The notes under the pieces were generated by a model. The model saw only the letters and a program-made list of their open reading frames with translations. It did not search any database and was not told the origin of the DNA. Shown piece after piece: positions 2,139-51,836 of a stretch of 64,000 nucleotides of DNA; position 1 is the stretch's first letter; each line of letters begins with the position of its first letter. The DNA comes from Halosimplex halophilum (GTDB lineage: Archaea > Halobacteriota > Halobacteria > Halobacteriales > Haloarculaceae). A program made the translations under genes and the position numbers. The DNA lies in assembly GCF_004698125.1 (NCBI RefSeq), contig NZ_ML214297.1, positions 992,001-1,056,000 of the forward strand. Reading direction: 5' to 3'.

Positions 2139-4596
2139 ACGCACGACCCTGGAAGACAGCATCGACCGCGCGGCCGAGACCGTCGGCTCGGTCTGGCCGC
2201 TGCACTCCTTTGTCACGGCCAACCCCCTCGCGGGGTTCGAGGACCGGCCGTTCCACCGCGCGGTGAGCGAGGCCGAGCAGCTGTTCGGCGGCCGCGGCTA
2301 CCCTCATCCCTCCGTCTTCCGGCGGGCCTGGGCGGACGGTCGGATCGACCCGGAGGTGCTGCGCGAGGAACTCGACGCCCACGGCGTCTCCGGGACGCCC
2401 GAGGCGCTGCTCGACGAGATGGAAACTGCCGAGGCGGAGCGCGAGCGCGGGAGCGACACCGACGACGCCACCGAGACCGTCGACCGGATCCTCTCGAAGT
2501 GGCTCGCCGCCTTCCTCGACCAGGGGCAGGCCCAGTGGTCGATGCCCAACCGCGAGCGCGGCTTCTACGCCGCCTGGCGCAGCCTGGCACCCCACGACGA
2601 GGAGATCCCGGGCTGCGACGACCCGTCGGACATCCCGGAGTCGCCGGTCGAGGCTGTCGAGGCGGTGCTCTCGGAGTTCCCGGAGGGCCGCTGGGAGGCG
2701 ATCTTCGAGCACCACCTCGCCGCGCTCCCGGGCTGGACCGGGTTCGTCAAGCAGCGCGCCGACGGCCACGCGGGGCCCTGGCAGTCGAAGTACCCCGCCT
2801 CGCTGCTCGACTACCTCGCCGTCCGGCTGACGCTGGTCGACTTGCTGGACGCGCCCGTCGAGCCCGAAGACACCGGGGCGACAGACGGGCCCTCCGACCA
2901 CGAGGCGACCGTCGAGCCCGACGAGTCCGGGGAGGTCCCGCTGGCCGAGGTCTGGCTGACCGCCTGGGAGAAGAGCTACCGCGCCCGCCTGCTCGACGGG
3001 ATCGACCAGTCGATCACGGTCGACCAGTCGGTCACGGCCGACCAGTCCGCCGCGGAGCCGTCGACCGACGGCGGCGACGGGCGCCCGGCCGCACAGCTGG
3101 TCTTCTGTATCGACACCCGTTCGGAGGTCATCCGCCGCCACATCGAGGACGCCGGTCCGTACGAGACCCACGGCTACGCCGGCTTCTTCGGCGTCCCGAT
3201 GCGCTACGAGGGCTACGACTCGGAGGTGGAGATCGACGCCTGTCCGCCCATCGTCGACCCCGAGCACCGGGTCACCGAGCGTCCGGAACACAAGGGCGGC
3301 GAGGCGGCCCACGACCGCTGGACCGGGCTGGCGACGGCCGCCCGGAAGCACCTCAAGTCGCTGAAGACCAACGTGGCGGCCGCCTTCACCTTCGTCGAGG
3401 GCGGCGGGAGCGCCTACGGCGCGGCGATGGCCGCGCGGACGCTGGTCCCGTCGGCCGTGGCCGACCTCTCCGAGGCCGTCGACGACCGGGTCCCCTCGCC
3501 CGCGGAGTTCTGCGAGCCCGCGCTCGACCGCCGCGAGAAGGGGGGTGACGGGGGAGACCTGCCCCACGGGATGACCCTCGCGGAGAAGGTCGACTGCGCC
3601 GGGACCGCCTTCGAGTTGATGGGCTGGGAGGAGTTCGGCCGGCTGGTCGTCTTCGCGGGCCACGCCAGCGAGACGGCGAACAATCCGTTCGGTTCGAGCC
3701 TCGACTGCGGCGCCTGCGCCGGCAACCCCGGCGGCCCGAACGCCCGCGCCCTCGCCGCCATCTGCAACGACGAGGAAGTCAGGGCACAACTCCGCGAGCG
3801 CGGTCACGACATCCCCGAGGACACCGTCTTCCTCGCCGGCGAGCACAATACGACCACCGACGAGATCACGCTGTTCGACGGGGCGGTCCCGGAGAGTCAC
3901 CGCGAGGACCTCGAACGCCTCCGCGCGGACCTCGACGAGGCCCGGGCCGGGGCCGCGGCCGAGCGCGCGGAGTCGATGGCGGGCGCCGACCCCGAGGAGG
4001 GCGTCCGCGAGACGAAGCGCCGGACGGCCGACTGGGCGGAGACCCGCCCGGAGTGGGGGCTGGCCGGCAACGGGTCGTTCGTCATCGGTCCGCGCGAACT
4101 GACCGAGGGCGAGGACCTCGACGGGCGGGCGTTCCTCCACTCCTACGACTGGTCGACCGACCCCGACGGGGCGGCGCTGGAGGCCATCGTGACGGGGCCG
4201 CTCGTGGTCACCCAGTGGATCAACAGCCAGTACTACTTCGCGACGGTCGACAACGCCGTCTACGGGAGCGGGTCGAAGGTCACGCAGAACCCCCGCGGCA
4301 ACATCGGCGTCGTGCAGGGCAACGGCGGCGACCTGATGACCGGCCTCCCGCTCCAGTCGCTGATGGTCGACAGCGAGCGTCCCTACCACCAGCCGCTCCG
4401 CCTCACGGCAGTTATCCACGCTCCCGTCGAGCGCGTGACCGACATCCTCGCCCGCCACGAGGAGGTCGCCAGGCTGTTCGACAACGGCTGGCTCTCGCTG
4501 ACGGTCGTCGACCCCGAGCAGGACAACGTCGCCGTCCACTACCGGGGCGACCTGGAGTGGGAGCGGGCTTCGGCCGCCAGGCCGCTCGCCCACTGA
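2128..4596 (+). CDS. dabA: DabA, DUF2309 zinc-dependent CO2-hydrating subunit of the DAB inorganic-carbon pump
   Basis: This 822-residue soluble subunit is thought to act as a vectorial carbonic anhydrase on the cytoplasmic face of DabB. The zinc-site residues known from bacterial DabA are present with correct spacing: Cys327 and Asp329 in VFCIDTRSEV, His512 in FAGHASET, and Cys527 in SLDCGACAGNPGG. The start codon lies inside the end of dabB, implying translational coupling. Acidic, Asp/Glu-rich inserts near residues 250-325 are less conserved and look like salt-adapted loops. A beta-carbonic anhydrase converges from downstream. The family assignment is firm; activity in archaea is inferred. 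Confidence 0.9.
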   Translation: MTLERTTLEDSIDRAAETVGSVWPLHSFVTANPLAGFEDRPFHRAVSEAEQLFGGRGYPHPSVFRRAWADGRIDPEVLREELDAHGVSGTPEALLDEMETAEAERERGSDTDDATETVDRILSKWLAAFLDQGQAQWSMPNRERGFYAAWRSLAPHDEEIPGCDDPSDIPESPVEAVEAVLSEFPEGRWEAIFEHHLAALPGWTGFVKQRADGHAGPWQSKYPASLLDYLAVRLTLVDLLDAPVEPEDTGATDGPSDHEATVEPDESGEVPLAEVWLTAWEKSYRARLLDGIDQSITVDQSVTADQSAAEPSTDGGDGRPAAQLVFCIDTRSEVIRRHIEDAGPYETHGYAGFFGVPMRYEGYDSEVEIDACPPIVDPEHRVTERPEHKGGEAAHDRWTGLATAARKHLKSLKTNVAAAFTFVEGGGSAYGAAMAARTLVPSAVADLSEAVDDRVPSPAEFCEPALDRREKGGDGGDLPHGMTLAEKVDCAGTAFELMGWEEFGRLVVFAGHASETANNPFGSSLDCGACAGNPGGPNARALAAICNDEEVRAQLRERGHDIPEDTVFLAGEHNTTTDEITLFDGAVPESHREDLERLRADLDEARAGAAAERAESMAGADPEEGVRETKRRTADWAETRPEWGLAGNGSFVIGPRELTEGEDLDGRAFLHSYDWSTDPDGAALEAIVTGPLVVTQWINSQYYFATVDNAVYGSGSKVTQNPRGNIGVVQGNGGDLMTGLPLQSLMVDSERPYHQPLRLTAVIHAPVERVTDILARHEEVARLFDNGWLSLTVVDPEQDNVAVHYRGDLEWERASAARPLAH

Positions 4597-22359: not shown

Positions 22360-23395
22360 CCTGCAGCTCGACGGCGTCCGGAAGGCCTTCGACGACACCG
22401 TCGCGCTCGACGGCGTCACCCTCGACATCGCCGAGGGCGAGTTCTTCACGCTCGTCGGCCCCTCCGGGTGCGGGAAGACGACGACCCTCCGGACGATCGC
22501 CGGCCTCGAATCGCCCACCGCGGGCACCGTCCGCTTCGGCGGCGCGGACGTGGCCGGCGTCCCGACCGAGGAACGGGACGTGGGCATCGTCTTCCAGAAC
22601 TACGCCCTGTTCCCCCACATGAGCGTCCGCGAGAACGTCGCCTACGGGCTGAAGTTCGCCGACCCGCCGGACGGCCAGTCGGTCGACGAACGTGTGGCCG
22701 ACCTGCTGGAGCTGGTGGACCTCTCGGGCATGGGCGACCGCGAGCCCGACCAGCTCTCGGGCGGCCAGCAACAGCGGGTCGCGCTGGCCCGCGCGCTCGC
22801 GCCGGCGCCGGACGTGCTCCTGCTCGACGAGCCGATGTCGGCGCTGGACGCCCGCCTGCGCGAGACGTTGCGCCGGCAGGTCAAGCGCATCCAGACGGAC
22901 CTGGGGGTGACCACCGTCTACGTCACCCACGACCAGGCGGAGGCGCTCGCGATCTCCGACCGCCTCGCCGTGATGAGCGACGGGACCGTCGAACAGGTCG
23001 GCACGCCGCGGGAGGTGTACGAGCGGCCCGCGACGGAGTTCGTCGCCTCGTTCGTCGGGGAGAACAACCTCTTCCGCGGCGAGGCGGTCGGCCGCGACGG
23101 CGACGGGACCACGGTAGCGGTCGACGGGACGGAGTTCCGGATCGACGACGGAGTCGGTGACGGGACGGGCGCGGCGAGCGATACAGTGACCTTCTGCGTC
23201 CGGCCGGAGGACCTGCGCGTGGGCGCCGACGCCAACCGCTTCGAGGTCGCGGTCGACACCGCGGAGTTCCTCGGCGAGACCACCCGCTACTACGCCGACT
23301 GGGGCGACCGGACCGTCGTCTTCCGGACGCCCGACCCTCACGACGGCGACGCGCTGACGCTCGGGTTCGACCCGGCCGACGCTCGGATAGTGTGA
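22343..23395 (+). CDS. thiQ: ABC transporter ATP-binding protein (ThiQ/PotA-like)
   Basis: This 350-residue ATPase drives the importer. It has a Walker A GPSGCGKTTT, Q-loop VFQNYALFPHMSV, signature LSGGQQQRVALARAL, Walker B VLLLDEPMSALD and the switch His in VYVTHDQAEAL. Residues beyond about 240 form a TOBE-type regulatory domain (FVASFVGENNLFRGEAVG onward). Bacterial ThiQ is shorter and lacks this domain, so the protein is closer to polyamine/iron ATPases; the thiamine assignment rests on the binding protein. GTG 22343 or GTG 22352 may be used. Confidence 0.85.
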   Translation: MVSVVDLQLDGVRKAFDDTVALDGVTLDIAEGEFFTLVGPSGCGKTTTLRTIAGLESPTAGTVRFGGADVAGVPTEERDVGIVFQNYALFPHMSVRENVAYGLKFADPPDGQSVDERVADLLELVDLSGMGDREPDQLSGGQQQRVALARALAPAPDVLLLDEPMSALDARLRETLRRQVKRIQTDLGVTTVYVTHDQAEALAISDRLAVMSDGTVEQVGTPREVYERPATEFVASFVGENNLFRGEAVGRDGDGTTVAVDGTEFRIDDGVGDGTGAASDTVTFCVRPEDLRVGADANRFEVAVDTAEFLGETTRYYADWGDRTVVFRTPDPHDGDALTLGFDPADARIV

Positions 23396-49259: not shown

Positions 49260-49985
49260 TTACTCGTCGGTCGTGCGGTCTCGGCCGTCCCGTACGCCCA
49301 CACCGGGCGCCGCGGTCGCGCGCGTCGCGGTCGCCTTGAACGAGGCGACCACGTCCGCGCCGGGCTCCAGGCCGAGCCGTTCGAGACTCGTCTCGGTGAC
49401 TCGCACCGCCAGCGGGTCGCTCGCGCCCACGTCGATACGCACGAGGGCCGTCCCGTCGCCGCGGTCGACGCCGGACACCTCGCCCCGGAACCGGTTGCGC
49501 GCGCTCGTCTCGCCGCCCCCAGGGGCGCTCTCGGGGTCGTGTAGCGTCACCGCGTCCGAGCGAAAGGCGACTCGCACGTCGTCGGCGTCGGCGAGCGCGA
49601 GCGCGCGGACGGTCCCGGCGTCGGTCTCGACGGTGACGAGGTCGCCGTCCCGTTCCGTGACCCGGCCGTCGAGGACGAGCCGTTCGGTGGCGGCCGTCCC
49701 ACCGAGCGCGGCCCGCAGGCGGTCGAACTCGGCGAGGAGTTCGCGCGCCTCCGCCGTCAGGCGGCTCCCGCCGCCCTCACTCCCGCCGCGACGGCGCTCG
49801 ACCAGCGGCCCCGCGGCGTCCTCCAGGTCGCCGATCCGGGCGTGGGCCCGCGAGTACGAGCGCCCGAGCGCCGCGGCCGCGGCGTTGAGCGACCCCTCCG
49901 CGGCCACCGCGCGCAACAGCGCCGCGTCACGCTCGTCGAAAGTCCCCCCGCCGACCCGCAGGTGCGCCTCGAACCCCGCGTCCAT
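49260..49985 (-). CDS. ModE-type transcription regulator with TOBE domain
   Basis: This 241-residue protein has an N-terminal LysR/ModE-type winged helix (about 15-80: RDAALLRAVAAEGSLNAAAAALGRSYSRAHARI) and C-terminal TOBE-like oxyanion-binding segments (about 110-235: VLDGRVTERDGDLVTVETDAG; FRGEVSGVDRGDGTALVRI). The gene diverges from a molybdate/tungstate importer, so it most likely represses that importer when Mo or W is sufficient. I chose MDAGFEAHLRVG at 49985; nine codons further upstream is an alternative. Confidence 0.88.
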   Translation of the reverse strand: MDAGFEAHLRVGGGTFDERDAALLRAVAAEGSLNAAAAALGRSYSRAHARIGDLEDAAGPLVERRRGGSEGGGSRLTAEARELLAEFDRLRAALGGTAATERLVLDGRVTERDGDLVTVETDAGTVRALALADADDVRVAFRSDAVTLHDPESAPGGGETSARNRFRGEVSGVDRGDGTALVRIDVGASDPLAVRVTETSLERLGLEPGADVVASFKATATRATAAPGVGVRDGRDRTTDE

Positions 49986-50015
49986 ACCCAACCCCTCGAC
50001 CCCGCCGACCAAAAT

Positions 50016-50064
50016 CGTTATGTCTCGACCGACACAACGTCGATATGTCTATGCCGACACAACG
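50016..50064. promoter_or_regulatory. Tandem inverted-repeat operators between the ModE-like and importer genes
   Basis: Two 24-base elements lie side by side, 25 bases apart. The left is CGTTATGTC-N6-GACACAACG (50016-50039), with eight of nine positions symmetric. The right is CGATATGTC-N6-GACACAACG (50041-50064), with seven of nine. Both share the core TGTC-N6-GACA. The left copy lies in the promoter region and the right copy covers the importer start codons, which fits repression by the divergent regulator. Confidence 0.72.
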
Positions 50065-51067
50065 GTCGGCCGGCGGGCGTTCCGCGAGTCACACTGACGG
50101 GCGTTCCGGCGTCGGTGCCATCGGCGCGGACGACGATGGCGCCACCCGACGCGGATTCCTGACCGGGCTCGGCGCGGCTGGAGCGGTCGGCCTGTCGGCG
50201 GGACTGGGTGGCTGTGTCGGGAGCGTCGGGAGCGTCGTCGGTGCGGACGGCGACGACAGCGACGGCGAGCGGCCGGTGTCGGTTCTGGCCGCCGGCAGCC
50301 TCCAGCTCGCCTTCTCGGAGGGTCTGCGCGCGGCGGTCGACCGGCGGGTACAGGTGGAAGCTCACGGCTCCGTGACGGCCGCGCGGCTGGTCGCCGCGGG
50401 CAAGCGCGACCCGGACGTGGTCGCGCTGGCCGACACGGCGCTGTTCGACCGCGTGCTCCCGGCCGGCTGGCACGCCGCGTTCGCGACGAACGCGCTCGTG
50501 GTCGCGTACGACGCCGAGAGCGAGGTCGGCCGCCGCGTCGGCACAGCGGAGCGGTGGTTCGACCCGCTGCTCGCAGGCGACGCAACGCTCGGGCGGACCG
50601 ACCCGGACCTGGACCCGCTGGGCTACCGCACGCTGTTCGCGCTCAACCTCGCGAGCGAGTACTACGACCGGCCGAGCCTGCGCGACGCCCTCGTCGACCC
50701 GCGGGCCGTCTACCCCGAGACTTCGCTGCTCTCGCGGTTCGAGACCGGCGACCTCGACGCCGCCGTCGTCTACCGGAGCATGGCCGAGGATCGGGGCTAC
50801 GACTACGTCGACCTCCCCGCCGAACTCGACCTCAGCGACCCCGACCGGGCCGACGCGTACCGCGCGGCCAGCTACGACCTCCCGACCGGCGAGACCGTGC
50901 GGGGCGGCCCCATCGCCTACGGCGCCGTCGCCCGACGGGACGCCGACCGGGTCGCCGAGGCGTTCGAGGCGCTCGTCGGCGGCGAGTACCTGGGCGACCA
51001 CGGCTTCGCCGTCCCCGAAACGTTCCCCGAGTACAGTGGTGATGTCCCGCGTGCCCACCGCCCGTGA
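50045..51067 (+). CDS. wtpA: Tungstate/molybdate ABC transporter substrate-binding lipoprotein
   Basis: This protein of about 340 residues has a Tat signal at residues 33-55 (TRRGFLTGLGAAGAVG) leading to the lipobox LGGC, after an unusually long hydrophilic lead. The binding domain starts VSVLAAGSLQLAFSEGL and continues VEAHGSVTAARLVAAGKRDPDVVALADTALF, typical of the WtpA/ModA family. ATG 50045 or 50051 may be the start; both lie inside the right operator. It overlaps the permease gene. Confidence 0.87.
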   Translation: MSMPTQRSAGGRSASHTDGRSGVGAIGADDDGATRRGFLTGLGAAGAVGLSAGLGGCVGSVGSVVGADGDDSDGERPVSVLAAGSLQLAFSEGLRAAVDRRVQVEAHGSVTAARLVAAGKRDPDVVALADTALFDRVLPAGWHAAFATNALVVAYDAESEVGRRVGTAERWFDPLLAGDATLGRTDPDLDPLGYRTLFALNLASEYYDRPSLRDALVDPRAVYPETSLLSRFETGDLDAAVVYRSMAEDRGYDYVDLPAELDLSDPDRADAYRAASYDLPTGETVRGGPIAYGAVARRDADRVAEAFEALVGGEYLGDHGFAVPETFPEYSGDVPRAHRP

Positions 51068-51836
51068 GTTCTCGCCGTGGGGCACGGCCGCGCCCCTGCT
51101 CGGTGGGCTGTTGCTCGCCCTCTACACCGTCCCGGTCGCGTGGCTGCTCGTCGCCCAGCCCCCGGGTACGGTGCTCGCGGCGCTGGACGCGCCGTTCGTC
51201 GTCGACGCCGCCCGGAACACGCTCCTCTCGGCGTCGGTCAGCACCGCGCTGGCGACGCTGTTCGGCGTGCCCCTGGCCTACTGGCTCGCCCGCGCGCGGT
51301 TCCGCGGCCGGGCGCTCGTCACCGCGGTCGTCGCCTTCCCGCTCGTGCTCCCGCCGGTCGTCAGCGGGATGGTCCTCCTGAGCGCGGTGGGGCCGGAGGG
51401 GCTCGCCGGCCTGCTCGGCGTCGAGGTCACCGGGACCGTCGCGGGCGTCGTCCTCGCGCAGACGTTCGTCGCCTCGCCGTTCGTCGTCCTCACCGCCCGG
51501 AGCGCCTTCGAGCGCGTCGACGCCCACACCGAGGAAGCCGCCCGGACGCTCGGCGCGACGGAGTGGCGGACGTTTCGGCGCGTGACCCTCCCGCTGGCCC
51601 GGCGTGGGATCCTGGCGGGGGTCACGCTCGCGTTCGCCCGCGCGGCCGGCGAGTTCGGCGCGACGCTCGTGCTCGCGTACTACCCGCGCACGCTCCCGGT
51701 CCAGATCTGGGCCACCTTCCAGGGCCGCGGCCTCGAAGCCGCCTACCCCGTCGCCGTCGTCCTCCTCGCCCTCGCCTCGGGCGCGCTGGTCCTCATCAAC
51801 CTGCTCGGCGAGTCCGCGCCCGTCCTCCCCGAGTGA
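51042..51836 (+). CDS. wtpB: Tungstate/molybdate ABC transporter permease
   Basis: This 264-residue membrane protein has about six helices and the ModB/WtpB family features LPPVVSGMVLL, the EAA loop EEAARTLGATEWRTFRRVTLP, and AFARAAGEFGATLVLAYYP. It overlaps the end of wtpA by 26 bases. GTG 51036 or 51039 are alternative starts. The ATPase normally third in such operons is not here; the next gene is unrelated, so the ATPase must be elsewhere in the genome. Confidence 0.88.
   Translation: MSRVPTAREFSPWGTAAPLLGGLLLALYTVPVAWLLVAQPPGTVLAALDAPFVVDAARNTLLSASVSTALATLFGVPLAYWLARARFRGRALVTAVVAFPLVLPPVVSGMVLLSAVGPEGLAGLLGVEVTGTVAGVVLAQTFVASPFVVLTARSAFERVDAHTEEAARTLGATEWRTFRRVTLPLARRGILAGVTLAFARAAGEFGATLVLAYYPRTLPVQIWATFQGRGLEAAYPVAVVLLALASGALVLINLLGESAPVLPE

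Follow-up and report, generated by a model that had tools for sequence, protein, structure and literature searches.

Between the gene of a ModE-type regulator and a divergent molybdate/tungstate (Mo/W) importer in the haloarchaeon Halosimplex halophilum lie two inverted repeats, one of which reaches across the start of the importer itself. What does this pair of repeats do, and how has it come to share its bases with a start codon? We examined the locus in the window (the whole 64,000-nucleotide stretch of DNA analysed), in the whole genome and across the order. In our reading, to which we give a probability of about 0.85, the repeats are tandem operators of the divergent ModE-type regulator, at which oxyanion-loaded dimers shut off the importer; we infer the binding, its ligand, the repression and the autoregulation. 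The features of the locus are as follows.

49260-49985, minus strand: ModE-type regulator gene, winged helix plus Mop/TOBE, start ATG at 49985
50010-50015, no strand assigned: CAAAAT, putatively BRE-like for the importer, its TTTT on the minus strand being the putative TATA-like element of the regulator
50016-50039, no strand assigned: candidate operator 1, CGTTATGTC-TCGACC-GACACAACG, over the importer TATA-like element and kept at relatives
50018-50021, plus strand: TTAT, importer TATA-like element of the haloarchaeal TTWT form, within operator 1
50041-50064, no strand assigned: candidate operator 2, CGATATGTC-TATGCC-GACACAACG, with the importer start codon(s) at its centre
50045-51067, plus strand: wtpA-like tungstate/molybdate binding protein gene, ATG at 50045 or 50051, SBP_bac_11 (Pfam)
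51036-51836, plus strand: wtpB/modB-like permease gene, BPD_transp_1 (Pfam)

Two inverted repeats unique in the genome

The original prediction had placed two 24-base inverted repeats with a 25-base period between the divergent regulator and importer, and this is what is found at 50016-50039 and 50041-50064, with a single base separating the two. Their right halves are identical over nine bases, as predicted, and their left halves are one base apart. Symmetry extends to 8/9 half-site pairs in operator 1 and 7/9 in operator 2, and against the consensus CGTTATGTC-N6-GACATAACG the two sites match at 17/18 and 16/18 bases, respectively. The intergenic gap is 59 bp and operator 2 extends into the importer coding sequence; both importer ATGs (50045 and 50051) lie inside it, which bears out the claim that the second repeat covers the start codons.

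With up to three mismatches allowed, the consensus matches operators 1 and 2 alone, both in the window (0 in 100 shuffles) and in the whole 4.47-Mb genome (control 0). The specificity of the motif resides in the outer CGTT/AACG bases. The shorter core that the original prediction had emphasised is not specific in the genome, and its weaker matches stay at control level: TATGTC-N6-GACA has two further exact genomic matches, each at the ATG-TC start of an unrelated gene, while TTATGTC-N6-GACATAA with three mismatches finds 16 genomic places, no more than the 16 of its control pattern. We therefore discarded bare TGTC-N6-GACA as the motif for lack of specificity. A wide regulon in this genome was discarded as well: the full pattern yields two sites only, the weaker matches are at control level or at unrelated genes, and one near-match precedes a gene of no related function (L122).

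The regulator and the importer

The regulator is ModE-type by its winged helix, its di-Mop fold and its conserved Mop residues, with metal and DNA binding predicted. Its Pfam domains are HTH_1 and TOBE, and it is the sole TOBE (PF03459) protein of the genome. The N-terminal ModE winged helix is present (TIGR00637, ModE_repress, 61.6 bits, under its cut-off of 98.5), as is the C-terminal Mop/di-Mop oxyanion-binding fold (TIGR00638, Mop, 65.5 bits, over its cut-off of 55). By sequence, the nearest PDB entries are those of E. coli ModE (1o7l/1b9m best), with 2ijl also matched, and BLASTP against K-12 ModE gives 27% identity (E 6e-08). An AlphaFold model made from 72 aligned sequences (mean pLDDT 88.9) has full-length ModE (1b9m/1o7l) as the top Foldseek match of this predicted structure. 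Within the model, residues 98-226 align to the di-Mop folds of ModG and ModE (1h9r/1h9m) with Z 15-17, the E. coli ModE di-Mop giving Z 15.4. S161, N164 and K217 do not vary among the 72 aligned relatives, and R163 is kept in at least 90% of them; these residues align with the SARN and K of E. coli, and we take S, R, N and K of the Mop domain to be the oxyanion ligands. The effector half (98-226) fits the regulatory domain of M. acetivorans ModC (3d31, Z 17.9) slightly better than it fits the ModE di-Mop, and this comparison with a predicted model suggests that effector half and ATPase tail may have a common ancestry.

The binding protein and the permease of a WtpABC/ModABC-family importer are both present at the locus, and this wtpA encodes the only WtpA in the genome. 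The match to the WtpA model (138 bits) and that to the WtpB model (208 bits) are below the equivalog cut-offs, so the choice between molybdate and tungstate as substrate is not settled; the ModB match of the permease is also below cut-off. No cognate ATPase gene follows wtpB among the open reading frames of the window, and the best WtpC-like ATPases are encoded elsewhere in the genome, one of them in the window near 22364-23227, so that wtpAB (50045-51836) may rely on a shared ATPase.

Both candidate operators fall on predicted core promoter elements

Haloarchaeal promoters have TTWT as TATA element and CGAAA as BRE, and 72% of the protein-coding transcripts of Haloferax volcanii are leaderless, according to an excerpt of PMC4983044. 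Across 32 divergent loci, TTATxT is found at -33 to -28 of the spacer ATG, inside operator 1, and AAAA or an AT-rich block at -40 to -37. Read toward the regulator, the AAAA block is a TTTT about 27 nt from the regulator ATG, and the AT-rich block is kept beside the regulator in two loci where the importer is absent (L009 and L014). Operon-type loci retain the start-codon site alone; in the 27 compared, the region from -30 to -26 of the spacer ATG holds an AT box (TATTT/TATAT). Because of this geometry, together with the TTWT and leaderless rules, we assign operator 1 to the importer TATA element and operator 2 to the start. The distance from the TATA element favours ATG 50045 as the wtpA start (strictly leaderless), whereas comparison with tupA loci favours 50051.

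With plentiful molybdate or tungstate in the cytoplasm, the oxyanion would bind the Mop domains of the regulator, and a loaded dimer would then occupy operator 1, over the importer TATA element. Operator 2, whose centre coincides with the leaderless start site and the start codon, would be occupied by a regulator dimer as well. The bound dimers would exclude TBP/TFB and RNA polymerase, turning wtpAB off; when the metal is scarce, they would leave and the importer would be made. Operator 1 abuts the TATA-like TTTT of the regulator, and the regulator is therefore probably autoregulated through this operator. The proposal that adjacent dimers sit side by side had to be corrected: a period of 25 bp corresponds to 2.4 turns, which would place neighbouring dimers on different faces of the helix. 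This period is found in 18/27 adjacent pairs of sites, the others being spaced at 22, 26, 27 and 29 bp.

Conservation follows the regulator across the order

The original prediction had named conservation at orthologous loci, beside binding by the regulator, as a point on which the motif stands or falls. The motif is conserved there, and also at unlinked importers and importers of a second type. The regulator was found in 91 of the 117 genomes of the order, the other 26 being those with no regulator match at E<=1e-20 (six of them identified by elimination). Among 100 regulator loci (7 from the contig scan and 93 from the genome search), 46 have a match of at least 12/18 within -60 to +260 of the regulator start, versus 12 of 261,827 background windows. 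At loci without a site in this interval, the regulator is mostly not divergent from an importer, and in many it stands behind a different operon. Up to 5 kb upstream was fetched for 40 of these loci, and there the site is usually found at the start of a tupA gene, in the form CGTTGTATC-NATGNN-GATACAACG.

In a further set of comparisons, genes were picked by homology, not by the motif, and scored out of 18. All 58 main tupA genes of regulator-bearing genomes score at least 15/18, a count that takes in ten loci first lost by a start filter, and in 54 of them the start codon lies within the site. The site is likewise carried by 36 of the 37 wtpA genes divergent from the regulator, the single miss (L022) being a search-window artefact at a locus whose sites are known, still counted as a miss. 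At controls, the motif is absent: only 1 of the 13 second tupA paralogs in regulator genomes has a site (L265, score 15), with L268 counted as lacking one though it shares a divergent region and its site (16) with L253, and none of the 13 wtpA-like genes in regulator-less genomes reaches 14/18. Two of the five tupA genes in regulator-less genomes do have a site (G013 and G015, scores 15 and 18); these genomes are 78 and 76% complete, and the tupA genes of the three complete regulator-less genomes score 13. The scoring consensus was taken from the same family and the controls were scored by the same scorer, and the counted species are related, so that the rows are not independent events. As sequence comparisons, these homology-picked tests support a dependence of the site on the regulator.

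The exact 20-mer RTRTCNATGNNGRNACAACG occurs in 32/91 regulator genomes versus 0/26 others (Fisher p 1e-4), and all 33 exact places in these 32 genomes precede importer binding-protein genes; matches with one mismatch contain much noise, e.g. the recurrent ATGTCGATGGTGACACCACG. Four sites are unlinked to the regulator, before TupA in G065, G109 and G107 and before WtpA in G080, those of G080 and G107 being one mismatch from the 20-mer. The same arrangement stands before most related importers, and the two-palindrome design is very probably genuine for this reason. Taken with its absence at controls, the conservation at orthologous loci supports the prediction that the repeats before this Mo/W importer are operators of the divergent ModE-type regulator.

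The operator, the start codon and competing explanations

When the ATG is at position 11 of the site, the right half-site encodes residues 3-5 of the binding protein. Of the 48 homology-picked tupA genes that start at position 11, 45 have ATA as codon 3 and 46 have CAA as codon 4. Elsewhere in such genes, ATA makes up 11/347 Ile codons and CAA 48/385 Gln codons; this background was counted in motif-picked genes and is partly circular. The right half-site imposes these rare codons on the signal peptide. The start codon also lies within the operator at most wtpA loci examined. We consider it probable, with some reserve, that haloarchaea repeatedly wrote a ModE operator into the start and signal-peptide codons of WtpA- and TupA-type Mo/W importers, so that one word would serve as transcription start, start codon, repressor site and first exported residues, the rare codons being forced and leaderless transcription permitting the overlap.

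The overlap could be read the other way round, with site 2 conserved solely for coding the first residues of a Tat signal peptide (M-x-x-Q-R-R), and with site 1 a product of chance. The right half of site 2 is indeed coding in most loci, and Q-R-(R) residues recur. Yet the synonymous positions are fixed to the rare codons counted above, the non-coding left half is conserved too, 12/13 tupA paralogs with similar Tat starts are without the site, and site 1, non-coding for the importer, is nevertheless conserved, with the prevailing 25-bp period. This explanation is largely refuted and highly improbable. Still less credit is due to the idea that the repeats work at the RNA level, forming a hairpin or terminator in the leader of the regulator or of the importer. 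Read on the minus strand, site 1 with its TTTT resembles a terminator (1 such structure found, 0.5 expected in shuffles). We rejected a terminator or RNA role. With the leaderless starts that we infer, neither hairpin would be intact in the mRNA; moreover, site 2 has no T-run, and copies of the site occur both unlinked and within several different arrangements of genes.

Other alternatives accept a protein at these sites and differ in which protein, or to what effect. It is unlikely that the regulator works from these operators as an activator of the importer, or in a dual role, instead of as a repressor: E. coli ModE does carry a dual-regulator annotation and operator 1 lies upstream of site 2, but both sites coincide with parts of the core promoter, one with the TATA element and the other with the start site and start codon, and operon-type loci retain the start-codon site alone. 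Use of the sites by a DNA-binding protein other than the divergent regulator is very unlikely. Two incomplete regulator-less genomes carry tupA sites, and G011 has a different ModE-HTH protein; against this, the exact sites are confined to regulator-bearing genomes and have their frame in common with the E. coli ModE operator.

Relation to known ModE systems

The divergent pair of ModE-type regulator and importer has a close counterpart in E. coli, where ModE, likewise a winged-helix and di-Mop protein, is encoded divergently from the modA importer. The E. coli K-12 modA operator, CGTTATATT-GTCGCC-TACATAACG (L300:1547-1570), has the same 9-6-9 frame and matches 15/18 bases of the haloarchaeal consensus; the 24-bp inverted repeat CGTTAT..N..ATAACG in this frame, near Mo transport genes, is found here as well. 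The published E. coli ModE consensus is ATCGNTATATA-N6-TATATANCGAT, as given in an excerpt of PMC545781. The candidate motif proposed for a haloarchaeal ModE-type regulator therefore holds as an element conserved at importers, but not as one specific to haloarchaea. The systems differ in the half-site core (TATATA in E. coli, TATGTC here, TGTATC in most tupA loci), in the tandem arrangement of two operators here, unlike modA, and in the core promoter, which is archaeal here. In addition, the E. coli operator ends 20 nt upstream of the modA ATG whereas the haloarchaeal one covers the start codon, and E. coli has acrZ between modE and modA.

No description of a haloarchaeal ModE operator was found in the literature searched; outside that search lay most subscription papers and Studholme & Pau 2003, which, by its title, reportedly concerns a ModE DNA element conserved in Archaea. 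The ModE operator itself is of a known kind, and its tandem, start-codon-embedded, haloarchaeal form appears to be new. The ModE site of Geobacter sulfurreducens modDABC, ATCGTTATgTcaTgAAggtTATAGCGtT, has CGTTATGTC as its left half, as here, and is predicted to occur just once, 158 bp ahead of the start, according to the same excerpt (PMC545781). The AcuR operator of the leaderless acuR operon in Rhodobacter sphaeroides is also an inverted repeat with an N6 spacer that overlaps the promoter, although AcuR is a TetR-family regulator with a bacterial promoter (excerpt of PMC3017554).

Haloarchaeal Mo/W homeostasis hereby gains a defined candidate operator, and the site becomes a predicted regulon marker by which unlinked importers can be located. 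Through it, a core promoter of archaeal type is linked with a regulator that E. coli has as well. A regulatory site constrains protein-coding codons across many genera, and importer start codons can therefore be called from the operator.

Variants of the site

Near ModE-HTH genes of the wider phylum, no site scored above 14/18 among 30 loci (29 outside the order and one in G011), a scan that is weak as evidence of absence outside Halobacteria, where the proteins are mostly short and the loci differ. The G011 protein (C78:9360-9614, L298) is a different short ModE-helix protein in a genome without the regulator, and it scores higher to the bacterial model. On one contig, a divergent tupA pair (L253 and L268) apparently has one operator between its members. 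L151 has a second operator-like site at oriented position 3343, about 1 kb downstream of the tupA-start site and before a permease match (3602). Four loci (L060, L067, L069 and L071) in AT-richer genomes of about 1 Mb from the same order have near-perfect operator palindromes, GTTATGTC-N6-GACATAAT; in three of them the operator period is 29 bp, and the start codon of L071 falls outside the operators, on their downstream side.
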